From Cloeon dipterum (Eukaryota; Arthropoda; Insecta; Ephemeroptera; Baetidae), in NCBI RefSeq assembly GCF_949628265.1, contig NC_088787.1:14250501-14314500 (forward strand): 64,000 nucleotides of DNA. The letters run 5' to 3'. The notes under the pieces were generated by a model, which did not search any database, was not told the DNA's origin, and saw nothing but the letters and a program-made list of their open reading frames with translations. The stretch's first letter is position 1; the number at the start of each line of letters is the position of its first letter. Positions 42,873 through 63,907 of the stretch are shown in pieces. Position numbers and translations under genes: made by a program.

Positions 42873-43731
42873 AAAAATAACCTTTTTGATGTTGCTCTAA
42901 TTATTGATGAAAAATTATAAATAAAACAATTTAGGAGGGGAATTACTCATAATTGATGAAAACGCATATGTATGAATTTATAAGAAAACGTATAAACAAT
43001 TTTTGTTTAGCAAACACAGTTTGAAAGTAACATTGTTCATTTGAAAATAATCATGCACAAAGCAAGATTATATCAGCTGTTCATATACAAACGAAAGATT
43101 AAAAAAATTTAAATGCACAAATAATACGTTCATAATGGAATTAAATAACGAGCAAAAGTGAATTTCAACATTTGTCAGTGCCTTACTGACGTTAAATTAA
43201 TTAACAATAATAATAATATTTTTTCATGATATTTTGGACGATTTGTGTTTTTGGATCATGCTGAGAATAACTAGCTAGATAAACACATCCTTTTCTTTAA
43301 AATACAAACGCTATATAAAAACGACCAGCAGGGAGAACCCTTCTCAATCTTTGACGCTGCGGCGGCCACATGGTTCTACAATTAGTCAATTATATTCCAT
43401 CGCATATCTATTAATAGTGCAAAATAGGTTAGGACATAATATGAATGCTCTTGTTACTAACTAATGAAAGAATTTTTATTGAATAATATTTTCCTATATT
43501 AAACTATAAAAAACAATTTATTAATTTTCATGCGAGTATATTTCTCCACAAGTGAGTTAACTTCATTTCATTAGCCTTTGTTTTAATTATAAAATAATGA
43601 CGATGAAAAACGTTTAACAATGTAATGAGCCCAGAAACCACAGACCTTTGAAAAACTCAAAACATAAATATTGAGGTTATGTTGAGGCTTCGGTAACCAT
43701 GTAGTGGTTAACCATTATCTAAGTTTAGATT
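42873..43731. other. Convergent spacer between the two nuclease genes
   Basis: 3' UTRs of both genes. The copy 1 AATAAA is at 42921-42926; minus-strand signals for copy 2 are at 43475-43480 (TTTATT on the plus strand) and again near 43515. AT-rich, no other feature seen. Confidence 0.55.
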
Positions 43732-46772: not shown

Positions 46773-47020
46773 TTAGGAGATTATGGGCTTCAAATCGCCG
46801 TGTTCCGGATGGAACGTATAGCCATGCACATTTTTTATGTGTCTTTTGAGATGGCTTACCCTGCTGAGCACGTTTTTGCAAATCGGACAGGTTGACTTTC
46901 CAAAATGAATGGACAAGTGGCGTTGGCAGGCTTTTCTGTCGCGGAATTCGCGGCCGCAGAGGTTGCACGTGCACGAACCTGTAGGGTCGGGCGTAATCAT
47001 TTGCGACGTTGGCACTTTGA
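46773..47020 (-). CDS. Array exon T20: two C2H2 fingers
   Basis: Last (3'-most) exon of the array in this window, 83 codons including stop. Follows the acceptor CTTTTTACAG; first two bases TC complete a split codon. Finger 1 CNLCGREFRDRKACQRHLSIH, five-residue linker FGKST, finger 2 CPICKN..LKRHIKNVH, then tail GYTFHPEHGDLKPIIS. Fifth Cys (RKACQRH) present in finger 1. DNA-binding isoform end is the likely role; target unknown. Confidence 0.8.
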
Positions 47021-47182
47021 CTGTAAAAAGACAAGGAAGGTTTTAACTTGGTTTACTGGAGTGAGAAAATTAGATAAAACCCCTTAAAATATTGAATTGT
47101 TAAAACTACTTCAACGCTATTAATAAAAATAAATAAACCCATTCCATTTATTTGTATATTTGCATCTCGCAAGCGGCACTAC

Positions 47183-47511
47183 TTATTTGTGTATAGCACT
47201 CAAAACCTTGGTCTTTGAACTGGAAATTATAATTTTAGACCGTTTGTTATTATCTTTCGCACTGCTGATTAGAGTTTCAAGCTTTTTTTTTGGGTTCCTT
47301 TCCTGAGTTTTCTTTGGCACAGGGTTATGTGCGAGTCGAATGTGTCGCATGAGATGCGATCTTTTGCTAAGGCAGCGGAAACATATGGGACAGGTGGTGC
47401 TGCCCTCGTGCATGGCCAGGTGATCCCAGCAAGATCTGTAAGAGGAAAAGACACGCTGGCAGGTACTGCATTCGAAGAGGCCGTTGTCGTTCCACACTAC
47501 TTTCGATTTTC
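47183..47511 (-). CDS. Array exon T19: two C2H2 fingers, long basic tail
   Basis: 110 codons after acceptor CACGTTGCAG, first split-codon bases GA. Opens GKSKVVWNDNGLFEC. Finger 1 CSTCQRVFSSYRSCWDHLAMH, linker EGSTT, finger 2 CPICFRCLSKRSHLMRHIRLAH. A Lys/Ser-rich tail of about 45 residues (KKTQERNPKKK, SSKTKVL) resembles a nuclear localisation signal and is unlike the short tails of other units. Minus-strand poly(A) signal at 47147-47152, about 35 bases past the stop. Confidence 0.82.
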
Positions 47512-48792
47512 CTGCAACGTGAAAATCAGCTTGACTGTCAAACGGTTTCGGTCCTTGCGCCTCTGATCATAATTTGGATGTGAAGATGTAAAGTAAGTTG
47601 CCTTGCTGACCCTCACCACTCACCGCAAAGCCACCTTGTGATAAAAAAACGTGTTTGTAAACATCACGGCTTAAAAAACCAAACGTGTTGTGCGGTTTAG
47701 CTTGTGGGCTCTTCTCTTCCGTTCTAATCTAACCATCCACCATTAATTTTCCACACAGAGTATAGCAATTTCAGTTTCTTTCTGTCTGCTTTCTTTTTTT
47801 GCGTTGAAATATATTTCTGGAAAGGCATTTTGCCTAAAATCCTTTTTGAATAGGACAGCCATCAGAAAGTTAAATGAGAATTTTTCCTTTCATAAATTCA
47901 CATTTTAGAAAAAGCAGAATTTGTTTTTCTTTGACGTTAGCTTTTAAAACAATTTTTGAGCTGGTGATTGTTTTAGGGAATGACGGGGTTTGCAAGATTT
48001 CTTCACTCGATTTTACTCAGAAATGAGTTTTCAACAATCGCTGATTCAGAATTCTCTGCAGGTTAAGAATTTTTTTGAGGTTAAGTACTGCTGATCCAAG
48101 GCCTGCGGGGCCGAAACAGTTGTACAATACGAGAACGTTGTTATTTAATTTTCACTATTTAGCTAACCGTCCAGAATTATAATTTTCCATACAGAGCAGA
48201 AACATTCAGTTTTTCTTAAATTAAAAGTTTTCACTATGAAACTTTTCAATTGTATAATTTAAGTCGATTAGATAAGTTCAGCTCCTCAATTTGACACTGA
48301 ATTCCGAATCAGTCGCATCATCACATCGATGTAATGAGCACAATTCTCCTTTATAACATTAACAAAAATAACCAAACAGATATTTTGATGATATGAGATT
48401 TAGCAACACACAAATAAAATTAGGGAATGAAGTATTTTCAAAAAACAATTTTTGTTTTTATTGAAACGATAATAACCTTTTAAATGCACATAATCAATTT
48501 TGCCACTCGTCGTTTTGAAACAAGAATATTGCTCTGGCGACTTTGACACGCGCGGTTGCTCACCAACAGTCAGTAATAAAAATAATTATTTACCAAGTAA
48601 GCCTATTTCGTAATTCTATTCTTGAAGAACCCCCAGTGGACTTAAATTTAATTACGCGACCCTTCGTTTCGCTGGACAGTTTCCAGCCGTTGTCATCGGA
48701 TGTAAACAAAATGAAGCACAAAAAGAAGAGACGACCAAACGGAAATAATTTTTTGATCCTTCGCTGGGTAAATTTCCAGTTCATGCTTTCGT
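47512..48792. other. 1.3-kb spacer between T19 and T18
   Basis: Intron upstream of T19 plus T18 3' UTR. A minus-strand poly(A) signal for T18 is at 48457-48462. On the plus strand 48630-48770 reads like a protein fragment (EEPPVDLNLITRPFVSLDSF, then KMKHKKKRRPNG) without a start or splice context; possibly a fossil coding piece. Confidence 0.4.
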
Positions 48793-49040
48793 TCACATAG
48801 GCATATTGTGGACGTTCTTCATGTGCCGCTTGAGGTGCGACTTGTGGCTGAGTTTGCGCGCGCAAATCGGACACGTCGTTTCCCCCGTGTGCACGTAAAA
48901 GTGTCTGAGGCACGAGTTGCGCAGGGTGAATTCGTGGCCGCAGGCACTGCACACGTACGCGCCGTCCCTGTAAATGACCTCGAGCTCAGCCGTCGAGTTT
49001 ATCATTTCGGCTTTTTTATTGTAATTTCGGCCCACGCCAC
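48793..49040 (-). CDS. Array exon T18: two C2H2 fingers
   Basis: 83 codons after acceptor GTGTTTGCAG, split-codon bases GT. Opens GVGRNYNKKAEMINSTAELE, so the first 25 residues are charged and without fingers. Finger 1 CSACGHEFTLRNSCLRHFYVH, linker TGETT, finger 2 CPICARKLSHKSHLKRHMKNVH, tail NMPM. The linker TGETT is the closest in the array to the classical TGEKP linker. Confidence 0.82.
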
Positions 49041-49877
49041 CTGCAAACACACAAAATAATGCCATCGTTCAGTGCAAAAGTTACGTGGGGGGTTTTTATG
49101 TAGAATTTAGTACATAATTAGATATCATGTGGATGCGCTGATGAGACTGACTTTGCCCTCTCTGAGGACGGGCAGTGGTGCGCCTGAGTGAGTGTTATAG
49201 GGCTGTTTGTACAGAGGGACGCTTTGCTTCCAAGTGTGCCATAGTTGCGTGCAAAGAAAAACCTCAACCAATTCAGAGGGTGGCAAAAATCAATGCTCTG
49301 CGTGTCGGGTGTCCAATGAAGGATTCGTTTTATTTTACAATCCTATTATTTACAGTTTGGCATTTTAGCATAACCAAGGAACTTTCTCATGACATTGAGA
49401 TTCAAATAATTATGCATTTTACTATTATAGTTACTTCACAAAGTGTACAGTGATTCAGGCCCCTGCAGCGAGTGTCCGTTATGCAACATGTGCGTCACGC
49501 GGGTAGAGCGGGTTGCATAGCAGCGAAATGGAAGGCAGGTTTCATAATGAAAAATATTTTCAATTTTACATAAAATGTGAACTTGAATATCATCTGCGAT
49601 GATACACGTTATGTTGCTCAGGCTATCGTTACTTTACAAAATATAAATAATTTAATGTCATTTCAAACTGTGTGGTGATTTCTAAGCCGCCCACTTGTTT
49701 TGAATCTAAATGATAATTATTGCGAATAATAATTGTGTAGCAGGACTAAAACAAGTAGCGTTCGATTGAAATTCAAAATATACACCATCACACATTTGCA
49801 AAATAGGCTTTCGGCCAAAATTGAACCGGTTCGATGGACAAATAAAGAAAAAACAATCACACACGGCAACTACTCGG
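49041..49877. other. 0.8-kb spacer between T18 and T17
   Basis: Intron upstream of T18 and 3' UTR of T17/T16. AT-rich, with no AATAAA on the minus strand that I would assign with confidence. A plus-strand frame (49175-49453) has no support. Confidence 0.4.
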
Positions 49878-50059
49878 CTAGCTGATTTGGTGGACCGTTT
49901 TTAGGTGTCGTTTCAAGCTTTGCTGGTTGCTGAGGGTGCTGGCGCAGAGGGGACAGGTGGTCAGACCAAGGTGCACGCTCATGTGCTTTTGCCGCGTCTG
50001 CTGCGTGCGGAAGAGCTTTCCGCACACGCCGCACCAGAGGCTGCCGGCGTCCAACTGGC
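49878..50059 (-). CDS. Array exon T17: two C2H2 fingers, minimal exon
   Basis: Shortest finger exon, 61 codons. The acceptor GAACTTTGCAG (ending 50060) lies directly behind the stop codon of T16 (50069-50071). Split-codon bases GC. Finger 1 CGVCGKLFRTQQTRQKHMSVH lacks the fifth Cys (Thr/Gln there); linker LGLTT; finger 2 CPLCASTLSNQQSLKRHLKTVH; tail QIS. With only eight leader residues before finger 1 it depends wholly on the shared N-terminal part for anything but DNA contact. Confidence 0.8.
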
Positions 50060-50068
50060 CTGCAAAGT

Positions 50069-50370
50069 TCACAGGATCAGGTTGTGCTTGAGCTGCATGT
50101 GGCGCTTTAGCACCGACTCGCGGCTGTAGACGCGGCCGCAAACGCTGCACCGCGTCTTACCCAGGTGCAGCGCGAAGTGGCGCACGCAGTTGGGCTTGTT
50201 CGAGAACGACTTTTGACACACGCTGCACTCGAAGCGCCCGGCCCGCACCACACATTGCGGCTGATTCACCGAGCCACCCCCCACCAGCACAAACTCCCCG
50301 AACGCGTCCAACTCTTCCTCGTCCTCGAGCACTTCATCATCATCATCGATCATAACTAATTCCGGCATGC
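50069..50370 (-). CDS. Array exon T16: two C2H2 fingers with acidic leader
   Basis: 101 codons after acceptor TCTGTTCGCAG, split-codon bases GC. The leader is strongly acidic (MIDDDDEVLEDEEELDAFGE), unlike any other unit, which may give this isoform a distinct activation or repression surface. Finger 1 CSVCQKSFSNKPNCVRHFALH, linker LGKTR, finger 2 CSVCGRVYSRESVLKRHMQLKH, tail NLIL. Its stop is nine bases from the first base of T17, so its 3' UTR must run through T17 or share its poly(A) site. Confidence 0.82.
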
Positions 50371-50818
50371 CTGCGAACAGAGCCGACACACAAATGGTCA
50401 TTTTCTCCACGTTCCTTGCTCCGCCAGCTTTTTGAGCCAAGCACACTGAAATTCTCGGCCAAGCTAGTTAGGAATCACACAGCTAATTACGAAGGCATGC
50501 CGATTCCATAGTCTAGATACTTTCCGAGGGATTGCCACTCAATACTTCACCCTCTAAAAATCACAGGCGTATATTGACCACCGGTAAAAAATAACGCTGC
50601 CATTGCCATGTGCGTTTATGATCGTGTGAAAATTAGACAATGCTAAGAAGTGTCAACTTTCTACTGAGGAAAAACCAGTTTCATAATTGAATAGAGGTCA
50701 CATTTTGTTCGATTTTGTGCACGATTTTCGATTGTCTTTTAAGGTGTGAGTTTCGACCGAACGTGTTTATGCATATAGGATAGATATTATATGTTTCTGT
50801 TCACGTGACGGTCACACA

Positions 50819-50979
50819 TCAGTTGCAGCCAGTGCACTGGTATTTGTCGTCCGCAAGTTGAAGGGTCATCAAAGGCCATTTATGTATTTCAAATTTCTTA
50901 AAGATATTATGCCCTAACACTTTTTTGGCTACATTTTCTACATCAGGCTGCAATTCGGCTGATTTCAAATCCTCAAATT
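50819..50979 (-). pseudogene. Array exon T15: truncated, finger lost
   Basis: Follows an acceptor like the others (TTTTTAATTGCAG, ending 50980), in the same phase (bases AA). Opens EFEDLKSAELQPD and reaches KYQCTGCN where finger 1 should begin with its Cys pair, then meets TGA. The opening AEFE resembles T7. It could be a decayed unit or a deliberate finger-less isoform end of 53 residues. I lean to decay because the first CxxC is present but the rest of the finger is not found in any frame just downstream. Confidence 0.5.
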
Positions 50980-51140
50980 CTGCAATTAAAAATACCTGCT
51001 GTCAAAGATGCTCTGTTCTGTTATTATGCTCTATCTACTCAAACAGGAGAAGTGAATATCGTACTCCTTACTTTCAGAGGGTTTCGTGTTCAATTTTTGC
51101 GATTGGTTTGCACAGTGTGAGCCATCGGCCGATCCACTTA

Positions 51141-51918
51141 TCAACTGCTCTTTCGCTTGGCACCACTGCTAAGTTTTTGCAGCCCAAGACAGTCTCTAAG
51201 AAAAAATGTGTGAATTGCGGGAAAATTAATTTTTTGCCGGCACCTACGTTTTACTAACTGGTACAATCCGAGGGATTTAAACGGAATTTTGTTCTTCCTC
51301 AAACCGTCCCTGGAGTATTTGCTGCCATAGTCTTGCGTCATAACTGCTTTCATGACCTCAAAAACTGCCGCTCTTTCGTCGCAGTCATCGAGTTTTCGGC
51401 TCAGGGCATTATGCTAATTGGATTGTTAAACAATTTACGCATTTTGAACTGATAGACCAGAGTGAGGTAACTCACGATTGTGACTACAAAGTCTTCATTG
51501 TCTAGTTTCATTTCAAAGGCATCCTTTTCGGCATCGTTGTTGATAGGAAAAAATTCAGATAGAAGACTCTCTTCTGACTTCTCAGGTGTGAATACGACTT
51601 TTGGACTGGGAGAGATTTCGACTGTCTCCGATGCGTTTGCTTGTTTTTTAAATGAGCGGTTCAAATGCGACAGCGCTCGCAGCATGTCTTTCTGTCTGTT
51701 CTCAATTCTAACCAACCGCTTCAAAATCTCAGCCTGACATTCTGAAAACAACCAGAAATTAGGCTCCAGCTTATTAAAATTATGGAAATTGAAACCTTCT
51801 CCTTCCGATCCTGCCATATTTGGTACGCTGAAGTAATCAACGATCTCACATATTTCTCCCTCATCCAAGGCAATTTCATTGTTAGATAATTGCATTTGCA
51901 TTTGCTTTACTCTTGTAT
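51141..51918 (-). CDS. Array unit T14: DUF4806-like domain instead of zinc fingers
   Basis: Enters at TTATTGCTTTGCAG (ending 51919) in the shared phase (bases AT), then three exons in gene order: 51918-51476, 51413-51259, 51195-51141, closing in frame. Leader TRVKQMQMQLSNN; a helical stretch EILKRLVRIENRQKDMLRAL; then FPINNDAEKDAFEMKLDNED and FVVTI, continuing HNALSRKLDDCDE and FKSLGLYQ. The order of helix, FPxxxxxExxxFExKL and the later conserved segment resembles DUF4806, a small domain of unknown function common in arthropod proteins; I recognise it by pattern only. The exon 2 donor may be at 51258 or 51254; only the first gives a tail (DCLGLQKLSSGAKRKSS). It is the only array unit with internal introns. 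Confidence 0.62.
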
Positions 51919-52246
51919 CTGCAAAGCAATAAATATAAATATCGCATTACATTCACTATATATTCAGTTTACGATTATTTAGAATGCCGCAAGGGCAACT
52001 AATGGTCATGCATTGATTGAATGTCTATTTTGTTAGTCTATTGAAAATTTTATTTTCACAGTCACTCATTATAATACACATGGAATGGTTCACCCATCGC
52101 AAGCACTATATGCTAATTTTTACACTTCGATCTCATTTTCCGACAGATTTAGCGAATTAACAATTTGCTAATTATCCGGATATTTTATTTTCATTAAATA
52201 GATTAATTTTTCAGTGTAGATCAGACGGAGAGCAAGTTAACAGAAA

Positions 52247-52458
52247 TCAATAGAGCTGCATTTTGTGCGAGTTTTTCAAGTGCCGGTTGAGATGCGACTT
52301 GAAAGTGAAACAGCGCGCGCAAATGGGGCACGTCGTTTGGCCCATATGCATGAGGAAGTGCTGAAAGCATGACGATTTGTTTAAGAACGAGCGTCCACAC
52401 GCACTACACACGTAGCGGCCGCCTCGCTCAAGCACTTGCAACTGGCCCGCAGAAACAC
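52247..52458 (-). CDS. Array exon T13: two C2H2 fingers
   Basis: 70 codons plus stop after acceptor TTATTTTTACAG, split-codon bases GT. Opens GVSAGQLQVLERGGRYVC. Finger 1 CSACGRSFLNKSSCFQHFLMH with the fifth Cys, linker MGQTT, finger 2 CPICARCFTFKSHLNRHLKNSH, tail KMQLY. Confidence 0.82.
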
Positions 52459-52899
52459 CTGTAAAAATAAGGGCACAAAACTTATGCTTCTGTATGTGTC
52501 GTTTTGCAAACTCGATTGCCGCTAAATTAGCATGAAGAAATAACTACACAACGGTCATTCACAATGCTAATGAAATGTGTGATTTTCCGTAGGAACTTAA
52601 GGCTTCAATATTGTGACGTTTCTCTTTTAAACTTGAAGTGCACGTCGTCAAAAAGCAGACTTCTTCAACCAGGCTCTTTACATTCAAAAGTTCAGCCCTG
52701 GAAACCTCTTGGAGGTTATAATTTCTATAGCGACGCTAATGCATGCCTACTTACAATAAGTAATTCAGATCATCGTTATTTAAAACATAAAAATGAACCA
52801 AGTCTTGATAGTCATCTTAAAATTCAGTTGCCTAGTTTAAAAAAAAATATTTAAAAAGCACAAAATCCTGCACTCGAAAGGATTTGCCCGTGTAATGGT

Positions 52900-53153
52900 T
52901 CATAAATTTAGCATGGGAAATTTGCTTCTCTTCTTTAGAATCGGCACATTTGAGGCATGAACGGTTCGCATGTGGTTGCGGAGGTGCGAAACAGTGCTCT
53001 GCACCCGACAGCAAATTGGGCAGGTGGTTTTGCCCTCGTGCTTAGGCTGGTGTTCCGCGAGCGCGTGTTTAGTTCGGTAAGTCCGTTCGCAATAATTGCA
53101 AGGGTAGGTCAAAGGTTCCTGGCCCGCTTGTTCCACTATTACGTGTTGCACCC
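52900..53153 (-). CDS. Array exon T12: two C2H2 fingers, divergent
   Basis: 84 codons plus stop after acceptor GTGCTGATTGCAG, split-codon bases GG. Opens GVQHVIVEQAGQEPLTYP. Finger 1 CNYCERTYRTKHALAEHQPKH has Leu, not Cys, at the core position; linker EGKTT; finger 2 CPICCRVQSTVSHLRNHMRTVH. Lys/Arg-rich tail (ILKKRSKFPM). With T5, T6 and T17 it is one of the few units without the fifth Cys. Confidence 0.8.
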
Positions 53154-54543
53154 CTGCAATCAGCACAAAAAGTTCGCTCAGAATTCTGTGGGCGTCCAGC
53201 ACTAACCAAGCATTCATTCTAGGCATCGGAAAGCAGCATTATTTGAAGAGATGCAACCGTGAAATTTCTCTACGCAACAATCACAAGAGTTTCATTCTTT
53301 GTGACTGTCAAAATACTCTCTACAAGATTCCTGACCTTAAAACCATACGAGCACAATAGAAAGATTAGCTGGATGCGAGTTGGACTAGAAATGGGCATCA
53401 ATTATTCAGCAAACCGAAAATTAGCGCGCTTAAATGGTTCGCGTTAGTTGAAATCGAAATTGTTAGCTTGTGTCCGCAAAAATATTTTTCGATAAATATC
53501 CCAAGCATCGCGAGTGTTGTTTTTTTTATAGATGATTACTCTCACTATCATTCAAAATACGTCAAGTTATTAATATGTATTTGTCAAATCAAGTTTCATT
53601 TTACTTCCGTGTTTAGCATAATTATTCACATTTAATTAAAAAAATAAACACATAATATATGTTTATATATTGTAGCTTGAGACCTCAGAACTCATTTTCT
53701 AAAGAATTATTAAATAAACAGACAGAATTTGATACTCAGGGTTGAGATCTACTTGGCAACGGCAAATATTAAAGAATGTTTCAATACAAACTCAATGTTT
53801 TATTACATGTAAGTGGTAACAAGTAATGCGTCAATTACAGAGAATTTACATTAATCAGTCGAAGGTATTTAGCTTTTAAATTTTCTGTTTCAAGAAAATG
53901 AAAAAAACATTTTAATACAGCATTTTCCACTCGCTAACAAAAAATAGGCATCAACTAAACCAGCAACGTAATAAGAGCATTTTGTTTCTTGAACAGTCTG
54001 AATGAATTCAAATTAAAGAAAATGATCGTTGCTTCAAGAATTCATTGACAGTTATAAGACATCAGTCATTTTGCCATTGCCAATTTCTAGTACGGTACGA
54101 GCTATAAATTTTACAATTAATATTTCAGGCTCAGAGCAAAATTATATTTTGGCAAAATATTGAAGCCCGGCTCAAAAAGCTGTGCACATTTTCATTAGAA
54201 CTCCATCTCTCTTCAGTTGGAGGCTTAGACATTCAAATCAGAGAATATATTTAATCCCAAAAATCTGCTATAATTATTGGATAAAATTCAGTTCAATTAA
54301 CAAGAAAAATTTTGTTTCAGAATCCAATGAAGGAGAACTAATTGAACTACTTGGAATAGTTTGGCTGCGTTATTTTGATTGAATTAAACTTGATTTTTGG
54401 CTACACTTCAAACTCTCCTCGTCTCGCATCAACTAGTGAAACGAACCGATCTGGTGTTTATCCTGTCCATGTCAATAACTAGCTCGGATCCTAAACGGAA
54501 AGCGAGAATCGGAAAAGCAAAATCGCCCGTTGAGCTCTCTGGC
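53154..54543. other. 1.4-kb spacer between T12 and T11
   Basis: AT-rich. Intron upstream of T12 and 3' UTR of T11. The first minus-strand poly(A) hexamer noted is near 53798 (TTTATT on the plus strand), some 750 bases past the T11 stop. No further finger unit found in any frame. Confidence 0.45.
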
Positions 54544-54977
54544 CTACGATCCACTATTGAAATCGGCGTGCGCAAACTGTTCGGCCTTTGTGTCAGGCTC
54601 TGCGGGCTCGGCCGGCTCCCCGGCGGCAGGCTTGGGCTTTCGTATTCGTTTGTACTCGACCACCTGATTGTGTGCCGCCCGCATGTGTGCCCTGAGGTGC
54701 GCCTCGGTGCAGAAGACGCCGCTGCACAGGGGGCACGTGGTCTTGCCGAGGTGCACCGCGAAGTGCTCGACGCACGCACGCCGCGTCGCGTAACTGCGTC
54801 CGCACGCGCTGCACTCAAACCTAGAGTCGGGCCGCTCGACGGCGTACAGGGCCTTGTGCGACACCGACGGGCCCGTCTGGCCCTGCGGCGCCGGGGGCGG
54901 CGCCGTGCTCGCGGCCGGCGGTGCCGTGCTCGCCGCCACTGGCGTCGGCAACAAAGAAAATTCCGCCGCCGCCAAAT
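54544..54977 (-). CDS. Array exon T11: two C2H2 fingers, Ala/Pro-rich leader
   Basis: 144 codons plus stop after acceptor TTTCTTTTTGCAG, split-codon bases AT. Far more GC-rich than its neighbours. The leader is Ala/Pro-rich (PAASTAPPPAPQGQTGPS). Finger 1 CSACGRSYATRRACVEHFAVH, linker LGKTT, finger 2 CPLCSGVFCTEAHLRAHMRAAH, followed by a Lys/Pro/Glu tail (RIRKPKPAAGEPAEPAEP). Several overlapping open frames on both strands are composition artefacts. Confidence 0.83.
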
Positions 54978-55783
54978 CTGCAAAAAGAAATAACGTGTGC
55001 GGGAGTGCGGCTCATATGAATCTCAATTCGACTGTGGTTTGGACAAAAACACACTTTGTTTTGCAATTTTTCTGCTTGTATTTTCCTTCTCTCTGCATAA
55101 TATATATATGTGTGTGGGGGTGTTCATTTTCTTTTTTTTTCGTTAACTCTCACAAGTGACGCAGCACATACACACACACACCCCGTGATAACAATTAGTA
55201 TAAGGCTACTTGCTAACTTCGGCCGTTTTGACGGCTCTCAACAAGGACTGATTTCTTTCTAATATAGAACAGTTTTCAACTGGTCTCACCTTCACACGCT
55301 AACACAGGGCGTTGGACTGGCTTTTAGGAAGTCTTATCTGGCCAAAAATATAAAATGCCAATCGCTAGTGACTAACAAAACACATGGTTCCAATCAGATA
55401 GGAAGAGCGTTCGATAGTTTAAAAAATTACAAGTCTTATCAAAATTTCAATTTCGTATCGATCAAAAAGCGATCGCCATTCAATTGAAATCTACTCTCAA
55501 CAATAAAAAGGTGACCAATTACGTGAAGAAGCAAGCCGGTGTCCAACCCCTTCTCTGTATGGGTCCTTATTCTCAAAATGGATCGACTTCTGACAATTAC
55601 ATTTCTCACGATTTTCGCCCTTCGGCAGCTCTAACTTAACATGATACACAGGAAGATGGCGTATTTACAAAAGAAGACCATATCATGTGTGTTTATTTCG
55701 AAGCCCGCGACCAGCAGAGTAATTAATAATATGTATTACTTTGAAAGAAATTCGTATTTGTAAGCAACAAAAGTGACTAAAGA
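54978..55783. other. 0.8-kb spacer between T11 and T10
   Basis: Intron upstream of T11 and T10 3' UTR. Contains a minus-strand poly(A) hexamer at 55692-55697 about 90 bases past the T10 stop, a T-rich run and a short (CA)n tract near 55170-55182. Confidence 0.5.
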
Positions 55784-55992
55784 CTACCGGAGTTGGCCGT
55801 GGATTTTCTCTAAGTGCTTTTTAAGATAGCACAGACTGGAAAAACTGCGTCTGCAGAGAGGGCACATGGTTTTGCCGGTGTGGCTTTCGAGGTGCCGCTT
55901 GCAATCCTGCTTGTACAAATAAGTGCGCGCACACACACTGCAATAGTAGCGGCCGTCCTTTTCGATCATAACAAGGGGGTGGCGCAGTGCAT
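55784..55992 (-). CDS. Array exon T10: two C2H2 fingers
   Basis: 69 codons plus stop after acceptor TTTTGTTGTTTGCAG, split-codon bases AT. Short leader DALRHPLVMIEKDGRYY. Finger 1 CSVCARTYLYKQDCKRHLESH, linker TGKTM, finger 2 CPLCRRSFSSLCYLKKHLEKIH, tail GQLR. Only 145 bases separate it from the T9 stop. Confidence 0.83.
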
Positions 55993-56137
55993 CTGCAAAC
56001 AACAAAACAAACTCAAATCGACTCCTCTGCTTGGTCGCTTATCTGATTTGCATGATTTTTTTTCATCTAAAAGGGTTAGTTGGTTGGTTGGTTGGTATAA
56101 TGTAGGTTGGTCACTGTCAGTCAGTTTTCAAAAAAAT

Positions 56138-56370
56138 TCAAAGCGGCGACTGCTTGTGAATGGTCTTTAAGTGTTTCTTAAGGTTCCCTGGACTACTGAA
56201 ACTATGAAAGCATATGGAACACGTGGTTTTTCCCAGGTGCATGGCCAGGTGTTTGGAGCAGGTGCCCTTTAACGTGAACGAGCGACCGCAATAACTGCAA
56301 GTATAAAGGCCGTCCTTCTCAATGACCGTTAGAAGTCTGTCGCCTGGCGGATAGCGCGCCCACTTAAAAT
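56138..56370 (-). CDS. Array exon T9: two C2H2 fingers
   Basis: 77 codons plus stop after acceptor AATTATTTTTGCAG, split-codon bases AT. Opens DFKWARYPPGDRLLTVIEK. Finger 1 CSYCGRSFTLKGTCSKHLAMH, linker LGKTT, finger 2 CSICFHSFSSPGNLKKHLKTIH, tail KQSPL. The exon has no ATG until finger 1, so it cannot be a free-standing gene and is easily missed by start-codon searches; this supports splicing to an upstream shared part. Confidence 0.83.
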
Positions 56371-56654
56371 CTGCAAAAATAATTCAACGCAATGCTCAGA
56401 CAACTTGGCATCAGCTTTTGGTTCAGCTTGATATAGCAACCAAACAAAACGAAAAGTGATCAGGTACACCCCACTAGGAACAGAAACTCGTCTAGCCTAA
56501 TGCTCTACAAAAACAGGGGCATGAATCGTTTATTTTGGTCTAAAATCGCTAACTGTATAAAAAATGCTGCGGTTTGCATTGCTATTGAAAAATATAACAT
56601 CCTCGGTCCTTTTCGCATGCAATTTTTCCCTGATCAACAGTATCTCTCTTTCTC

Positions 56655-56872
56655 TCAACAGAAGAAGGCCCTCTTGTGCACCGTGTCCAAGTGCCGCTTT
56701 AGGTGCGGCTCGTTGCTGAGCACGCGAAAGCAAATGGGGCAAGTGGTGGTGCCGAGGTGCAGGGCGAAGTGCTTCATGCAATTTGTCTTTTCGGTATAGG
56801 AGCGACCACACGCGCTGCACGAGTAGCGGCCGTCCTTCAGGATTACTTTCAGACCCGCGGGGTGCACCCGGT
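56655..56872 (-). CDS. Array exon T8: two C2H2 fingers
   Basis: 72 codons plus stop after acceptor GATTATTTTTGCAG, split-codon bases AC. Leader DRVHPAGLKVILKDGRYS. Finger 1 CSACGRSYTEKTNCMKHFALH, linker LGTTT, finger 2 CPICFRVLSNEPHLKRHLDTVH, tail KRAFFC. Minus-strand poly(A) hexamer at 56529-56534. Confidence 0.84.
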
Positions 56873-57350
56873 CTGCAAAAATAATCATTGCCAAACTGAG
56901 CCAAATCTGTGGTCAAGTCACACGGTGAGGCATTTCATTATCCAATCACCAAGCTTTCTACAGCACAGCGTCACCCTCGATTCCCTTAAAATCGCAACGC
57001 TCGATCGCGTGAAATTTGCTCTCACTATCAACATATTATTCATAAAGCATTTTATTATTTTATTCAGAGAGAAAACTTTTGGCAACTTTCGTGTGTTCCC
57101 TGATTGTTGGCGTTGGGTTCGATTTTCGCTCGGTATTTTGTTTATTCCCTTTCGAAATGAAATGGCAGCAGCTCGCGACGATGACTTAAAATCGATTTAT
57201 TTTAAAATTGCACACTAATATGCACACCGTAAACAGTGAGAATGAAAACACTATTCGGGAATGACTGTTTGCGATCGCACGTAAGAACAGCAATCAAGAG
57301 GAAAGATACATCCGAGTTAGAGAAGAGCGTATGTTAGACTTAGAATCACA
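56873..57350. other. Spacer between T8 and T7
   Basis: Intron upstream of T8 and T7 3' UTR, with a minus-strand poly(A) hexamer at 57196-57201, about 150 bases past the T7 stop. Nothing else seen. Confidence 0.5.
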
Positions 57351-57799
57351 TCAGTTCTGCACGGTCTCGACAAAGTTCTGCAGACTGAGGTTCTGGTGGA
57401 TGGTCTTGATGTGGCGGATGAGGTGCGACTTTTTACTCAGCACCTTTCCACAGATAAAACACTTGGTTTTGCCGAGGTGGACGGAGAAATGTCTCGTGCA
57501 GTACACCTCCCTGGTGAAGGGTTTGTTGCACGCGCTGCAGTGGAACTTGCCGTCCCGTTCGATCACCTTGAGGTGGTAGTTGTTGGGCCGCAGGTGGGCC
57601 GAGCGAATATGCCGTTTGAGCTGCGGCTCCGAATCGAAGCTCTGGTAGCACACAGAGCACGTCGTCTCGGCGAGGTGAGTCGACAGGTGCTCCGAGCACT
57701 CCATTTCCGCCGCGAACTCGGCCTCGCACGCGCTGCATTTGAACGATCCTTGCGTCGCGACCACCCTGAGCCAATCTTCGCTGTCTCGAGCCTCAAATT
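57351..57799 (-). CDS. Array exon T7: four C2H2 fingers (duplicated pair)
   Basis: 149 codons plus stop after acceptor TGGTGTTTGCAG, split-codon bases AA. Opens EFEARDSEDWLRVVATQ. Pair 1: CSACEAEFAAEMECSEHLSTH, linker LAETT, CSVCYQSFDSEPQLKRHIRSAH. A bridging leader repeats the usual pre-finger pattern (NNYHLKVIERDGKFH). Pair 2: CSACNKPFTREVYCTRHFSVH, linker LGKTK, CFICGKVLSKKSHLIRHIKTIH. Both first fingers carry the fifth Cys. The structure is that of two array units fused without an intervening splice site. Confidence 0.84.
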
Positions 57800-59632
57800 C
57801 TGCAAACACCAGACCACAAATCGCACATCAGATTTTTGCACATTCGCCCCCGTTTCGGGACTGCTGCGTGCCAAAAAACACACATTCACTCGGGCAGCCG
57901 ACACAACAAAAAGCGGAATCCCAAGGTTTTCCTCCCAACCCTCGGCGTTGCTTTAAGATATGGCTCAGGTGTGTTGCGCAATTTCGGTTTAAACTTGGCT
58001 GAATTGGCTCTAAGTATGATTTTGTGTGAATCAATATCTCTCGGACTAATGCATGAATTTTAGTTTAAAATATGAGCTCGAAGGTATATTTTTTTCTTGG
58101 AAGCCTAAGCTTGTTTCTTCTTTTTCTTCTTCAACATGGTTCTTGTCCAATTCCTTTAGCTCCTCCATTGGGTCCACGTTGCTCCACAAAATTTTCCTTG
58201 GTTCGTCTTCTTATACCAATAAGTCCCTTCCAGCTGTCAACGGCGATATTCGTTGTGGGCAAATCTGTATAGAGGTGTTATTTTACGTCTTCAGCTATTT
58301 GCTCTCCATGAGATAGTGCAGAACAATTTGTGCTGCCGTAGGCATGATCGCCTCGCATCGTAGTTTGTGTGTACTTTAATCAAACGGTTTTTCGGTTGAA
58401 ATTAATGAAATAAATAGCTTTGGCTAATTGTAGATTTTAATTTAGTGAGCTTACGACCGAGTATCAATGAATCAAGTGCAAAGGTTTCAAATTACTGGAC
58501 CCAAGTTTATGTACGTATTAGTAACATTTTATTGCTATTTGGATTTAACCAAACCAGATCTACATTTAACCACTTTAACTAAAACTGTGGACAGACCAAC
58601 AAAAGTCGAATTTAAAATTCTCCCTAGCCTCTATGACGTAATACTTTCATATTTTTATGATTTCAGCAAATATTTTATTGATGTGAATTGGTGTCAACAG
58701 CAAAATTTCGAATTGAGCGATGACAGCTTTGAGGGAATTAACATAAAAAGCATAATTATGCTTTTGTTACAGCTAATGGCAGTTCTTCAGATTCGTAAGC
58801 TAGCTATTGCGTGACAAATTTTTAACTAACAACCTCTTTCATTAGTAAGAGAAGAATACCCTCCGGCTTCTTAACCGTATGGCAAGTTAAATTCAAGTTG
58901 ATTTCTTTCTAATCAACTTTGTTGGAATCTTATTGAGCTTTTGAGGTTTTAGATTTTATCTTGCGTTTTGGTAACAAACTTGCTTAGGCATAATTTTGAA
59001 CTTGAAAAATGCTTTTCTTTTACTTTTTTCGATTGATACCCTTTGTTTCATTTCTGATAGATTTTAGTTGCAGAGCTATTAAAAATTTGTCACACTTGTC
59101 TTGGAGTCGGTAGCGCTCACCATCCTCCAAATAAGGTAAAATTACAAACTCATAAACTGCCTTTGATTTCGTCACAGGCCTAGAGTTTAATGTTTTCTTA
59201 TTACTAAGCGGGGGTTTTTTGTCACTAATATGCCATTCCAAATCTTTAAAGCAGTGTTCCTATCAATAGCGACTCCAACAACGGCCCTGAATTGATCACA
59301 AAATATAGGGCTCTCAACTTAACAACGTGGTTCCCAGTAAATTTTGGAGGCAGTAGTTTTAAAACAGAGACAACCCAATTTGTGTTAATGCTAACTGAAT
59401 TCCCAAGTTGCAATTTCAACTAGGGAAAAGGTTCCGCACCAGTTTTGATAATCAGGTAAGCAATGTTTGTTGCAAATACATAATTAAATTTAAAATAGGT
59501 TTACGACATTAATTTGAAATAATTATGAGCCGGTTAGAAATAGTCTTTGCTGAAATTAGATTTTTTGGCACATGGCAATAGATAATTGTGAATTAACGGT
59601 GAGTGGAACAAACGAGTTTCTGCTTGAACAAA
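57800..59632. other. 1.8-kb spacer between T7 and T6
   Basis: Largest gap in the array. Minus strand 58047-58285 reads like coding sequence broken by a frameshift and stops (HLYTDLPTTNIAVDSWKG, then PRKILWSNVDPMEELKELDK), possibly a processed-pseudogene piece. A plus-strand frame at 58467-58814 and a minus-strand frame at 59020-59241 have no family resemblance; short protein-like stretches near 59270-59400 look like decayed mobile-element sequence. Confidence 0.35.
58467..58814 (+). CDS. Orphan open reading frame, 115 aa, doubtful
   Basis: ATG-started frame on the strand opposite to the array (MNQVQRFQITGPKFMYVLV at the start, QIRKLAIA at the end). Composition is that of AT-rich DNA (Leu, Ile, Phe, Tyr, Lys). 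I recognise no domain and see no promoter, splice or poly(A) context. More likely chance or a decayed element than a gene. Confidence 0.15.
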   Translation: MNQVQRFQITGPKFMYVLVTFYCYLDLTKPDLHLTTLTKTVDRPTKVEFKILPSLYDVILSYFYDFSKYFIDVNWCQQQNFELSDDSFEGINIKSIIMLLLQLMAVLQIRKLAIA

Positions 59633-60354
59633 TCAATTCGGTTTGTGCTCATGTTCCCTATACAAATGTTGCATAAATTTAGACTTCCGTTTAAAAGATA
59701 AAGAGCAAAGAGGGCATTTGTACTCCAAATGTTCCTGACTCTTTTTTCCCACCTTCTTCAAAATGGTTTGGTCTGCATAGTGGTAGGAGTATAAATGGCT
59801 AACCATATCACTGTTTCGTGAAAAAACTCTCTTACAAATAGGGCAAGTAGTTTTCCCTTTATGGACATCATAATGCAAACTTAGAGAATTTTTTATCTTG
59901 AAACATTTTGAGCACAACTCACACTTGAACGAGCCCTTGGTCGCCCGTACTCTGTACGGGGGTCTATTCTCAGCTGATACAGACTGGCCATTTGGTTTAT
60001 GAGAGGAATTAATCGCACGCGTCTTCGCCGCATTTTTGGCAAATGTCTTCTTGTATTTATATTTTTTCGATATCTGTTGCACCGCACACGAAGCGGGTGT
60101 TCTGTAAGTTGAGGTTTTCCGCGTTGGCTGCACTCTTTGCGGCTCTGCACATTTCGACCCTCTTGAACTTTGGCGCTGGCTCCTTCGTATTGGCAATGGA
60201 GCTGATTGATCCTTGTCAAATGGCTTAAAATCCTTGATATCTGCCAGAGAGAACGTAGACACAATGATCGGAGTTGGGAATGAATCGTCCAGATCGACTA
60301 CTTCGCTATCTTCCAAAGTCTGCCAAGTTCCGTCCATAACCTCGTAATTCATTT
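59633..60354 (-). CDS. Array exon T6: three C2H2 fingers, longest leader
   Basis: 240 codons plus stop after acceptor CTGTTGTTTGCAG, split-codon bases AA. A leader of about 145 residues is unique in the array: acidic start (EDSEVVDLDDSFPTP) then basic (RRSQRQSSRGSK, KKYKYKKTFAK). Finger 1 CELCSKCFKIKNSLSLHYDVH, linker KGKTT, finger 2 CPICKRVFSRNSDMVSHLYSYH, a 20-residue spacer, finger 3 CPLCSLSFKRKSKFMQHLYREH. Finger 3 is appended rather than inserted, unlike T2-T5. Leu replaces the fifth Cys. Confidence 0.82.
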
Positions 60355-60912
60355 CTGCAAACAACAGCCTGTCAGTTTATAATTGTTTCGCCTAAGACAG
60401 GCACCGTGACCTAAATGTAGGTTTAATAATAAATTTGGGACGATTATCAGCGGTATCACCAAACCACTTAGCACTCAGTCATGCCCTATTCCCCCTATCC
60501 CTAGCCTCCACTAATTTTCTATATTTAAATCCATCTAATGCCGACCTCAATTCAATTCTAACGTATTTTAAGAGACAGACACCCTATATCCAGACGTGTG
60601 CATTGAATTTTAACACGCTGTGGATCCTTGAGGATTTCACAAATTCATCAAAGTATTTCGGGCAGCGCCATTGGGTGCCAGAACAGATTCGGTCTGCTTC
60701 ATTAGTTAAATGAACACGTCCCTCGAACCATAGATTCCACTCGTAAAATTTTATTTCTCTACTGACAGTCAAATTTATGTACATTATATTCGATGAGAAG
60801 GCAAACAGTGGCTTTGTTCACACGGCGCACTGCAGCCGGGCATAAAGAATAAATTAATCTATCACTGTAAACTAGCGTAAATGCGTTAAGAGCCACGTTA
60901 GCGTGAGTTTCG
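60355..60912. other. Spacer between T6 and T5
   Basis: Intron upstream of T6 and T5 3' UTR. Minus-strand poly(A) hexamer at 60750-60755. No other feature. Confidence 0.5.
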
Positions 60913-61274
60913 TCAGTTGAAAGTAGTAGTAGTAGTAGTAGCAGTAGTAGTCCTTTTCCCGTGTACCGACTTAATGTGCGTTTTCATATTATCGCGTCGG
61001 CTGAAGATTTTAAAACAGTGCGGACACTTGGTTTGGCCGAGGTGCAGGGCAAAGTGCTTTTTAAGGCTCGCCTCGCTGCTGAACGTCTTGTTGCAAACCG
61101 AACACGTGGTCTTGCCTAGGTGAAAGGCAAAATGATTGATCAGGGTCTGCTCGTGCGAAAAGTCGCTTGTGCAGACGCTGCAACAATAGCGCCCGTCCTT
61201 TTTGATAACCGTTAGTAGTTCCTCGCTCACGATAAGCTGTTTCGGCGCCCCCTCCTCGCCCACAAAATCAGCGT
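60913..61274 (-). CDS. Array exon T5: three C2H2 fingers, poly-Thr tail
   Basis: 120 codons plus stop after acceptor TTCTCTTTTGCAG, split-codon bases AC. Leader DADFVGEEGAPKQLIVSEE. Finger 1 CSVCTSDFSHEQTLINHFAFH (Leu, no fifth Cys), linker LGKTT, finger 2 CSVCNKTFSSEASLKKHFALH, linker LGQTK, finger 3 CPHCFKIFSRRDNMKTHIKSVH. The FSRRDNM segment is close to the second finger of tramtrack/broad-type proteins. The tail is encoded by an ACT-type trinucleotide repeat (60917-60952). Confidence 0.84.
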
Positions 61275-61844
61275 CTGCAAAAGAGAACCGGCGCTGAATG
61301 GTCAAGTCTATTGGTTGCTCATTTGATTTGTGAGAACAGAACAGCCCTCCGGACACCAGTGACATGCGCCCCCGCTCCTTCTATACCACACACTATTTGC
61401 AAGGGTAGCGTGAACAGCATAAATAAGGGGAAAGGAGAGTCAAAACGAGTCGCTCTGTGTATTTCGTTTATTTATTATTCTCTTCAATAAACTATAAAAT
61501 CCTAGTAAAATAAAAATTGATACTATGTTCAATAATATAAGTCAAAAGAACCGCTGCTTCTCTACGCGTTAAACTATATAAATTTTATGTATATATGTTT
61601 GTTTTCTTGTATATGTTTATGTATACTTTATAGTAGATTAATCTTATCTAACAAGAAGTTGCGTTCCAGTTTGGCAGCATAATGAGGTTACATGGTTGCA
61701 TGTTTAATTGTCTTGAGAGTAACATTGTTGTTTCTTGTATACGTGTTGTAGTGGTGTGTACGATCTAGTAAGGTATACGAGGTTTCTTGTTGCATAACTT
61801 AACTTATCTTTCTATACGATTATCGTCATCTCTATCTACAGCGA
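61275..61844. other. Spacer between T5 and T4
   Basis: Intron upstream of T5 and T4 3' UTR; a minus-strand poly(A) hexamer occurs near 61468, about 380 bases past the T4 stop. The stretch 61560-61840 is rich in GT/TATA simple sequence. Confidence 0.45.
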
Positions 61845-62158
61845 TCAGGCTATCTTATGTACAACCTTCATGTGATGCTTGAGGTAATAGGCGTTGCACA
61901 GACTTTTGTTGCATAGCTTGCACGTGGTAGTGCCCAAGTGCATGGCGAAATGCGTGGTCAGATTGGCGACGCAATCGAAAACTTTGTGACAAACCGAGCA
62001 GGTAGTTTCGCCTCGGTGTAGCGCGAAGTGCCTAATGCACGAGCCTTTGCTCATAAAAACGCGTTCGCACGCGCTGCATTTGAATTTGCCCTGGTGCTCA
62101 ATCACGCAAAGCGACCGCGCCAAGCCTGGCAGGGACCGAGCTTTCCTGTGCGGCAAGT
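61845..62158 (-). CDS. Array exon T4: three C2H2 fingers
   Basis: 104 codons plus stop after acceptor TTAACTGTTTACAG, split-codon bases AC. Leader DLPHRKARSLPGLARSL, basic. Finger 1 CSACERVFMSKGSCIRHFALH, linker RGETT, finger 2 CSVCHKVFDCVANLTTHFAMH, linker LGTTT, finger 3 CKLCNKSLCNAYYLKHHMKVVH, tail KIA. Fingers 2 and 3 are closest to those of T3 (CSVCFKVFD, LGSTTCQLCGKQLCN), indicating that T3 and T4 are sister duplicates. Confidence 0.85.
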
Positions 62159-62562
62159 CTGTAAACAGTTAAGTGAACTTGGTTGTAGACAAATGGCATC
62201 ACAAACATACAATTCATAACATACTAGCTAATTGGCCCCGCTGGGAAATGCTCTCTAGCTTCAGACTCATCTGAGTTTGCCACAGACTTGCGTGTGAAAA
62301 TATGCATTCGATTAGGGTCTTTGATTGATCTGTACTCTCCACGAGAAAAGCAGCGTAGTACTTGCACTCATTATTATTGAAGGTGTGTAAATTCGACTTA
62401 AAAATTGCCAGATACGTCAGGCAAATATATCAAATATGTAGCCTAGCCTTAAAAAAAAGAATAGGAAATTAGTAGTTTAGCGTGCTCGGCACGGGAATGT
62501 TTGTTTTCTAGGAAAAGGCACAACTGATTCTTCGTCTCTTTCTCTTTTAGAGTGGCTGTAGT
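62159..62562. other. Spacer between T4 and T3
   Basis: Intron upstream of T4 and T3 3' UTR. No clear AATAAA on the minus strand was noted. Nothing else seen. Confidence 0.45.
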
Positions 62563-62903
62563 TCACGACTTTTTCGATTGATCACCGCGGCTTCGCTTTA
62601 GATGGACGTGGTCCATGTGGTATTTGAGCTGCGTCATGTTGCAAAGCTGCTTGCCGCACAGCTGGCACGTGGTCGAGCCAAGGTGGAACGGAAAATGCGC
62701 TTTCAGGTTGACCAGCGTGTCGAAAACTTTGAAACACACTGAGCACGTCGTGCGGCCCAGGTGGAAATCGAAATGCCTAACACACGAGCTGCGGTTTTTG
62801 TATTTGCGTTCGCAAGCGCTGCAATAAAATTTGCCGTCCTTCTCTATCACTCTAAGATCGGCGGCCGTCGCGTCAGGTTCCGCGGCGTACATGAACTCGT
62901 TTT
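62563..62903 (-). CDS. Array exon T3: three C2H2 fingers
   Basis: 113 codons plus stop after acceptor GTGGGTGTTTGCAG, split-codon bases AA. Leader ENEFMYAAEPDATAADLRVI. Finger 1 CSACERKYKNRSSCVRHFDFH, linker LGRTT, finger 2 CSVCFKVFDTLVNLKAHFPFH, linker LGSTT, finger 3 CQLCGKQLCNMTQLKYHMDHVH, basic tail LKRSRGDQSKKS. Confidence 0.85.
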
Positions 62904-63046
62904 CTGCAAACACCCACAAAACACACGGTTTGATCAGTGGAGCAAGAGGAGTGATGTGTTTAAGACTTGGTTTATTGCGTTTTAGGCGTAAAGGCGGCCG
63001 AGTCACTCTCGGCACAGAATTCACCGACAAGCGAGCGAGCGTCTTA

Positions 63047-63345
63047 TCAAATTTGGTGAATCTGGTGCACACGTTCGAGGTGCACCTTCAGGTAAAACTC
63101 CCTGCCGAACTTTCGCTGACACACAGGACACGTGGTGGTGCCCAGGTGGACGGCAAAGTGCTGCTTGAGCGCGTCCTCATGACCGAAACTCTTATGACAG
63201 ATGGAGCAAGTGGTTTTCCCTAAGTGGGTTGCGAAATGCCGCACGCACGAGCTTTTATTCAAAAATCGCCGGTCGCAAACACTGCAAGAAAACGCGCCGT
63301 CCTTCATTATGACCTTGAGAGTGCTCGAGTCCAACGGACCAACGT
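63047..63345 (-). CDS. Array exon T2: three C2H2 fingers
   Basis: 99 codons plus stop after acceptor GGCCTGTTCGCAG, split-codon bases AC. Leader DVGPLDSSTLKVIMKDG. Finger 1 CSVCDRRFLNKSSCVRHFATH, linker LGKTT, finger 2 CSICHKSFGHEDALKQHFAVH, linker LGTTT, finger 3 CPVCQRKFGREFYLKVHLERVH, tail QIHQI. Minus-strand poly(A) hexamer at 62971-62976. Confidence 0.85.
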
Positions 63346-63629
63346 CTGCGAACAGGCCAACCCACAGCTTTTAATCCTCACAAGCAAAATCTATCTAAGC
63401 AAGTTGGTTTGGTGGTTTTAATAAAATTATCGAGTTCTACCAAGTTGGATTCCGTGTAAAAATCGTTTTATTATTAAGTCTTTCTCAGAGTTTACACATT
63501 AAGGGCTGGTGCGAAATTAGACAACACAGCTTGATTGGATTGCATCTATAGCGTGCGTGCTCCTTCTTTTTCAAGTCCATATAATCGTTTATTTACAGAG
63601 CACGGTGTCATGCAGTATACGAGCGCTGT

Positions 63630-63907
63630 TTAAGTCGTTCCAGTCTCACACTTAAGAAACGCGTCGCCTGAGGGGATGCCGTGCACGTGGCGCAAGTGTC
63701 TTTTCATGTGGCTCTTTCGACTGAGCACGTAGCCGCATATGTAACATTTTGAGGTGCCAAAGTGGATGGCCATATGCTTTTGACATGAATCACGGTGGTT
63801 AAATGACTTTCCGCACAATTTACAAGTAAACCGTGGTAATGTTCCTTCCTGAACCTCATGTGTAATAAATTTTGATGCCATTGAGTGAAACGAGTGGGCC
63901 TTGGAAC
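63630..63907 (-). CDS. Array exon T1: two C2H2 fingers (first unit in window)
   Basis: 92 codons plus stop after acceptor GGTTTTGTGTTCACAG, split-codon bases GT. Leader GSKAHSFHSMASKF. Finger 1 CKLCGKSFNHRDSCQKHMAIH, linker FGTSK, finger 2 CYICGYVLSRKSHMKRHLRHVH, tail GIPSGDAFLKCETGTT. Minus-strand poly(A) hexamer at 63588-63593, only about 37 bases past the stop, which marks it as a complete 3'-terminal exon. The shared upstream exons, and possibly more units, lie beyond the right edge. Confidence 0.84.

Follow-up and report, generated by a model that had tools for sequence, protein, structure and literature searches.

A tandem array of 20 units that probably supplies alternative C-terminal ends to a Tramtrack-type BTB gene of the mayfly Cloeon dipterum

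The broad gene of Drosophila has several alternative zinc-finger ends. Two further fly loci are built along similar lines: lola has common BTB exons, and 17 of its 20 isoforms carry different C2H2 zinc-finger ends (PMC11426971), while mod(mdg4) provides one BTB front end with more than 30 alternative 3' ends (PMC11727487, PMC12692577), whose tails are mostly of the FLYWCH type (PMC4667647). Here we describe a locus of comparable anatomy in the mayfly Cloeon dipterum, found in a stretch of 64,000 nucleotides (C2:14250501-14314500; hereafter the window) within a searched genome of 190 Mb in 10 contigs. Twenty short units follow one another on the minus strand of the window. Their array very probably represents the 3' part of a single Tramtrack-type (TTK-type) BTB gene, whose common donor site would be joined to one unit per mRNA, giving rise to approximately 19 predicted proteins.

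The sequence-only reading, in which the array was first noticed, had named 20 acceptor sites; all of them were found, and each is followed by a phase-1 frame ending at a stop (Table 1; units are named here after the position of their acceptor). The split codon, said to be limited to Asp, Glu, Gly, Ala or Val, specifies Asp, Glu, Gly or Val in 20 of 20 cases when completed by an upstream G, and the count of 43 C2H2 fingers in 18 units (2-4 per unit) was reproduced. Using our own simple splice-site weights and allowing any phase, we also scanned the span between the upstream stop and the first finger of each finger unit. The best-scoring acceptor was of phase 1 in 18/18 units (binomial p = 2.6e-9, a value that overstates the case, since the units are duplicates of one another and thus non-independent) and was the previously named site in 17 of them; in unit 60355 the scan preferred an internal acceptor, likewise of phase 1.

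The two remaining units contain no complete set of fingers. Unit 50980, evidently the one described as truncated, has a frame that stops inside finger 1, with remnants of a second finger behind the stop; judged by its sequence, it is a decayed copy. Unit 51919 qualifies the statement that each unit closes at its own stop, which is generally true, but here the frame seems to be read past its first in-frame stop (51401). The database protein P0011 aligns to 51919-51077, yet it is shorter than this DNA span and departs from its straight reading, which indicates that the unit consists of approximately three exons. Its proposed likeness to DUF4806 stands only in part: the tail alone matches the domain at 19.6 bits (E-value 0.0011), below the curated cut-off of 25, and the whole protein with this tail gave no DUF4806 match at an E-value of 0.1.

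The suggestion that a BTB domain should be sought to the right proved fruitful, since BTB exons were found just beyond the window end, on the same strand. Five common exons (Table 1) encode 305 complete residues, from MASQQYSLRWNNY to NESMGQEGIQ, plus a final G. The postulated shared donor ending in G is the last common donor (CAAG/gtaggc, phase 1) at C2:14315303, 803 bases past the window end; the first unit follows the BTB exons and this donor at a distance of 0.9-2.1 kb. The Pfam BTB model scores 96 bits on the front end, whose solved relatives include the TTK-type BTB of CG6765 (46 bits) and whose start carries the N-terminal xLRWNN-type extension of the TTK group. A common donor followed by several downstream acceptors of the same phase, each leading to a stop, is the arrangement that characterizes BTB genes with alternative 3' exons, and it is present at this locus.

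Database proteins connect the common part with individual units. In Cloeon it is joined to unit 60355 in P0009 (isoform X3) and to unit 51919 in P0011 (isoform X4), and an older protein, P0004, runs from the common part into unit 63908 and then on through 63346 and 62904. In a second mayfly, Neocloeon triangulifer, at least 18 isoform representatives, with numbers between X1 and X20 and all listed on a contig of one size, have one front end (93.5% identical to that of the window gene) and different tails. The claim of one gene with many alternative ends thus appears well founded, as P0009, P0011 and the Neocloeon isoforms share the front end and differ in their tails. At least 11 Neocloeon tails match window units, nine as reciprocal best matches and two (P0006 and P0007) in one direction, because Cloeon P0004 scores higher in the reverse direction. 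The Neocloeon tails P0017 to P0021 (n=5) resemble unit 60355 at 28-38%, a pattern in which turnover of tails between the two mayflies appears to be visible.

Residues at helix positions -1, 2, 3 and 6 of a zinc finger usually contact DNA. The sets of these residues differ among all 18 finger units, and each tail would be a candidate for binding different DNA. Contact residues are identical at 98/108 sites in the 11 Cloeon-Neocloeon pairs vs 223/1224 sites between different window units, a gap that is still wide although the pairs were picked by similarity, which favours agreement. The pattern fits ends that have been maintained separately rather than the debris of duplication.

The gene is also present in several other insect orders. 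Its relatives in termites, cockroaches, thrips, Orthoptera and Hymenoptera have BTB domains 80-83% identical to that of the window gene, the same ...Q/[GDEAV] junction and mostly two-finger tails. When 39 proteins of nine species were compared isoform by isoform, the shared part was seen to end in ...QDSLQ, ...QEAVQ, ...QEAAQ or ...QDAIQ, after which the tails diverge, in seven species; the exceptions are Periplaneta, in which both tails start with the same residue, and Zootermopsis, in which one tail departs one exon earlier. Two fingers were counted in 32 of the 39 tails, four in one and none in six. The early-departing isoform of Zootermopsis nevadensis (P0130) has a FLYWCH end, i.e. the tail type of mod(mdg4). 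In a survey of 233 fetched proteins the junction motif was present in 151; it was not matched in 40, and the 42 proteins of the C5 subtype were excluded. In all 151 the tail opens with E (55), G (51), D (39), V (3) or A (3), which is the set demanded by a phase-1 donor with a final G; the proteins, drawn from several orders, are not independent of one another. No fly, moth, beetle or true bug was found among the matches listed (120 of 828 and 120 of 1282).

Taking into account these observations, we consider it highly improbable that the units have nothing to do with the BTB exons and are instead small zinc-finger genes in their own right or remnants of tandem duplication. Such a view would accommodate the self-contained finger blocks with their stops and the decay of unit 50980, but it is opposed by the uniform phase-1 acceptors, by the database proteins in which the units are joined to the BTB exons, by the occurrence of the same junction in several insect orders and by the conservation of the contact residues.

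According to the single-gene explanation, one promoter region would drive the synthesis of a pre-mRNA carrying the whole array, from which transcripts for every unit would be produced. The five common exons, encoding the BTB domain and an acidic linker, would end in the phase-1 donor with G as its last base; this would be joined, mostly in cis, to one acceptor, and the message would end after the chosen unit. The choice would lie between 18 intact finger units, one multi-exon DUF4806-like unit and one decayed unit, so that the approximately 19 predicted proteins would have the same oligomerisation domain and different C-terminal ends. TTK-type BTBs form hexamers with broad heteromeric potential (PMC11426971), and different tails could share one complex, if the BTB of the window gene behaves like other domains of this type. 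The exon anatomy, the phase match, the conserved junction and contact residues, and the database proteins making the joins are the observations on which this explanation is based.

Several points weigh against it, in addition to the similarity-based choice of the 11 pairs. Polyadenylation signals (AATAAA or ATTAAA) were found behind 13/20 units vs 10.2 +- 2.0 in Markov shuffles, which is not significant (at least 13 units with a signal in 35/300 shuffles; AATAAA sense 17, antisense 14), and the label "terminal exon" therefore rests on the stops and the protein models. Among the matches listed, 7/18 finger units are without a Neocloeon counterpart, although some counterparts may be hidden, since the listed proteins represent 90%-identity clusters. 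The database proteins are largely pipeline predictions, and only three Cloeon proteins of the window gene were seen, covering few units. Moreover, Neocloeon P0014 combines the counterparts of units 50371 and 50060 in one protein (in Cloeon the stop of the former is only 8 bases away from the acceptor of the latter); together with P0004, which strings three units, this means that the use of one unit per mRNA is not established.

The identity of the gene was addressed with a maximum-likelihood tree of BTB sequences, in which 52/54 sequences were kept (two were dropped for gaps), BTBs from 26 further Cloeon places were added, and the fly sequences (n=12) are not verified entries. Separate Cloeon loci pair with fly br, ttk, fru, lolal, bab, psq, lov and mod(mdg4) (support 99-100), and another pairs with fly ab at support 85, fly Trl falling inside. 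The window gene is placed outside every fly-Cloeon pair, in a clade with four other Cloeon loci and a gene of thrips, termite, cricket, katydid, sawfly, wasp and ant.

Three fly genes were tried as candidates and rejected. The window gene appears not to be lola, as it belongs to a separate BTB clade and has 47% BTB identity to the unverified fly lola sequence; nor broad, as Cloeon broad is located at C3:26.68 Mb (88% and 73% by exon; support 100); nor mod(mdg4), as FLYWCH matches lie elsewhere and the counterpart of the mod(mdg4) BTB is at C1:19.83 Mb. FLYWCH gave only two matches at E<=1e-4 in the Cloeon genome, both on C4. An unverified composite lola-type (ECGKEP) finger pair gave at least four matches at E<=1e-6 among the best 150 of 901, all at C5:17.20-17.21 Mb, and these fingers adjoin another BTB. 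The suspicion that the gene is not lola was well placed, given its separate clade and the lola-type matches on another contig.

Orthology of the window gene to fly lola, broad or mod(mdg4) is very unlikely. In favour of such a relationship are the common architecture, several database names that say as much, and the divided evidence on the Cloeon lola counterpart, which would be at C4:8.32 Mb by the tree (pairing with fly lola at support 75) vs C5:17.21 Mb by its fingers. However, Cloeon has a separate broad, 88% identical over BTB exon 1 (window gene 58%), the C1:19.83 Mb locus is the one with which the mod(mdg4) BTB is grouped (support 100), and the branch setting the window-gene clade apart from everything else in the tree, all 12 fly BTBs included, has 100% ultrafast bootstrap support. 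Drosophila has 24 TTK-type genes (PMC11426971), and a fly orthologue may possibly be found among those outside the 12 compared.

The sequence-only reading had also proposed a distinct, undescribed expansion. Among the open-access listings, abstract openings and passages searched, the last from PMC11426971, PMC4667647, PMC7250882, PMC11727487 and PMC12692577, we found no description of the window gene. The proposal nevertheless holds only in part, since the gene is shared by several insect orders and its database entries already exist, with names that contradict one another: members of its clade are called broad-complex core protein isoforms 1/2/3/4/5, bric-a-brac 1/2, tramtrack alpha/beta, abrupt, jim lovell-like, lola H/M/V-like, modifier of mdg4, fruitless-like and several ZBTB names.

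Within Cloeon, genome searches with a unit as query (the best 150 candidates were scored, so that locus and tail counts are lower bounds) matched the window array, the array of a head-to-head sister gene and three further loci (Table 1), each adjoining a two-exon BTB. The best acceptor is of phase 1 in 61/66 cases (window 18/18, sister 14/15, C5 21/23, C2:27.56 7/8, C2:10.566 1/2). Over the five loci 63 tails with 156 fingers were gathered, counting in the two fingerless window units and leaving out frames outside phase 1. For 43 of the 61 tails with a match, the closest tail lies in their own locus (window 17/18, C5 15/21, sister 8/14, C2:27.56 3/7, C2:10.566 0/1), which suggests that tandem duplication within loci accounts for most of the growth of the arrays. 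For six of the sister-gene tails there is an identical Cloeon database protein. In Neocloeon, the isoform number of the C5-type gene reaches X50 (P0090), more than twice that of the window gene.

BTB exon 1 of the window gene differs from that of the sister at 2/183 bases, both silent, whereas 65-74% of aligned columns agree in the introns and 72% in exon 4. In this comparison exons 3 and 4 of the sister were each taken one base too short at the end, which leaves the values for exons 1 and 2 and for intron 1 unchanged. Residue 28 is Lys in both Cloeon genes and Arg in both Neocloeon genes. Gene conversion of exon 1 between the head-to-head genes would be the simplest reading of these data. The residue following ...ASFL argues against conversion in exon 2: in both mayflies the window gene has His there, and the sister has Asn. 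The Neocloeon counterparts P0001 (window gene) and P0022 (sister) are listed on contigs of different length (8372279 vs 9041796); the head-to-head arrangement may not be conserved there, or the assembly may be broken.

The last common intron of both head-to-head genes contains a partly conserved block of roughly 80 nucleotides with a perfect 18-nucleotide core, GTTTTGGTGTGTGCTAGT (C2:14314776-14314759, minus strand, beyond the window). In the 190 Mb this core has two exact copies and one with one mismatch (a reversed control pattern gave one match with up to one mismatch), and in the other three loci there is no match with up to three substitutions. Folding of the block is nothing unusual against Markov shuffles (z 0.15 and -0.21 in the two genes). 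An Rfam scan of the whole window at gathering thresholds gave no match; around the last common intron of the window gene, the single hit, below threshold and to a bacterial family, was attributed to chance. When this intron was compared with the 250 nucleotides preceding each of 19 acceptors, Dscam-like docking/selector pairing showed no excess over shuffles for words of 7, 8 or 9.

The block may bear on how the units are joined. They might be transcribed from promoters of their own and joined to the common exons in trans, as in mod(mdg4) and partly in lola; we regard this as possible, if rather unlikely. Both fly loci of such anatomy trans-splice (PMC11426971, PMC4667647), trans-splicing of mod(mdg4) is helped, indeed driven, by sequences of the last common intron (PMC11727487, PMC12692577), and it is in this intron that both head-to-head genes have the conserved block. 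On the other side, all units lie on the strand of the donor within about 18 kb and can be reached by cis-splicing, the block has neither an unusual fold nor, in the window gene, a credible Rfam match, and mod(mdg4) homologues of two Hymenoptera and one beetle are cis-spliced (PMC4667647).

A wider and rather speculative scenario, which we consider improbable, would see the mayfly genes as a family of up to five coordinated loci (about 60 tails and more than 150 fingers) derived from one insect multi-tail BTB gene, in which conversion of exon 1 keeps the products able to co-assemble and the intron block acts as a switch between tails, perhaps in trans and even between the head-to-head loci. If true, the products of both head-to-head loci would stay able to assemble together while their tails diversify.

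Table 1. Sequence features of the window gene and of related loci in Cloeon dipterum (positions without a contig name are those of the window)
Feature	Position	Strand	Remark
Alternative terminal unit, 2 fingers	63630..63907	-	joined to common part in Cloeon protein P0004
Alternative terminal unit, 3 fingers	63047..63345	-	Neocloeon counterpart P0006, one-way best match
Alternative terminal unit, 3 fingers	62563..62903	-	Neocloeon counterpart P0007, one-way best match
Alternative terminal unit, 3 fingers	61845..62158	-	Neocloeon counterpart P0003 (96%)
Alternative terminal unit, 3 fingers	60913..61274	-	acceptor, phase-1 frame
Alternative terminal unit, 3 fingers	59633..60354	-	Cloeon P0009 (isoform X3), 100% over 240 residues
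Alternative terminal unit, 4 fingers	57351..57799	-	Neocloeon counterpart P0001 (91%)
Alternative terminal unit, 2 fingers	56655..56872	-	Neocloeon counterpart P0002 (91%)
Alternative terminal unit, 2 fingers	56138..56370	-	acceptor, phase-1 frame
Alternative terminal unit, 2 fingers	55784..55992	-	acceptor, phase-1 frame
Alternative terminal unit, 2 fingers	54544..54977	-	Neocloeon counterpart P0013
Alternative terminal unit, 2 fingers	52900..53153	-	Neocloeon counterpart P0008
Alternative terminal unit, 2 fingers	52247..52458	-	acceptor, phase-1 frame
Alternative 3' unit, approximately 3 exons, no finger, weak DUF4806 match	51077..51918	-	inferred from P0011 (Cloeon isoform X4)
Decayed unit	50819..50979	-	stop within finger 1, remnants of finger 2 beyond
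Alternative terminal unit, 2 fingers	50069..50370	-	Neocloeon counterpart P0014 (composite)
Alternative terminal unit, 2 fingers	49878..50059	-	Neocloeon counterpart P0016
Alternative terminal unit, 2 fingers	48793..49040	-	Neocloeon counterpart P0005 (90%)
Alternative terminal unit, 2 fingers	47183..47511	-	acceptor, phase-1 frame
Alternative terminal unit, 2 fingers	46773..47020	-	Neocloeon counterpart P0015
Common exon 1 (BTB)	C2:14316459-14316277 = window-continued 65959-65777	-	gene model
Common exon 2 (BTB)	C2:14316212-14316000 = window-continued 65712-65500	-	gene model
Common exon 3	C2:14315941-14315761 = window-continued 65441-65261	-	gene model
Common exon 4	C2:14315700-14315428 = window-continued 65200-64928	-	gene model
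Common exon 5	C2:14315368-14315303 = window-continued 64868-64803	-	gene model
Head-to-head sister gene, 14 phase-1 finger tails	C2:14324334-14341353	+	array starts 8 kb from window array; BTB start at 14324334, tails to 14341353
Same-clade BTB locus, 23 finger frames	C5:9.126-9.152 Mb	-	unit query and BTB tree
Same-clade BTB locus, 8 finger frames	C2:27.564-27.575 Mb	+	unit query and BTB tree
Small same-clade BTB locus, 2 finger frames, one of phase 1	C2:10.564-10.566 Mb	+	unit query and BTB tree
18-nucleotide core copies	L009:3259-3276 and L010:4400-4417	- and +	last common intron of both head-to-head genes

Elsewhere in the window, an open frame of 957 amino acids on the minus strand (3186-6059) encodes what we take, by eye, to be a mitochondrial dynamin-like GTPase of the OPA1 kind, and two similar open frames lie on opposite strands at 42477-44609, an apparent inverted pair of related genes.

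Our results suggest that lola and mod(mdg4) are not alone in multiplying DNA-binding ends in this way: a further gene, found in several insect orders, has an array about as large as theirs, and its mayfly relatives occupy up to five loci. At least eight conflicting names are in use for it, including "broad-complex core protein", while Cloeon broad sits elsewhere, and work on hormone-response genes of termites or ants could fix on the wrong one. Most worth following are the intron block, the expansion in mayflies and the BTB exon that is almost the same in both head-to-head genes. This exon, set among introns that have diverged, combined with contact residues that differ from unit to unit and are kept between the two mayfly genera, offers a clean system in which to test how one oligomerisation domain works with many DNA-binding ends.

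Compared with the described systems, the window gene shares with lola the common BTB exons, but it has C2H2 pairs in place of lola-type fingers and belongs to a different BTB clade. With broad it has in common a TTK-type BTB and an intron splitting this domain at about the same residue, whereas its BTB is 58% identical to the unverified fly Broad sequence and Cloeon has its broad at another locus. Like mod(mdg4), it appears to place many alternative 3' ends behind one BTB front end; its tails, however, are mostly of the C2H2 type. The window gene is a poorly named further case of the known BTB alternative-tail architecture, and not a new architecture.

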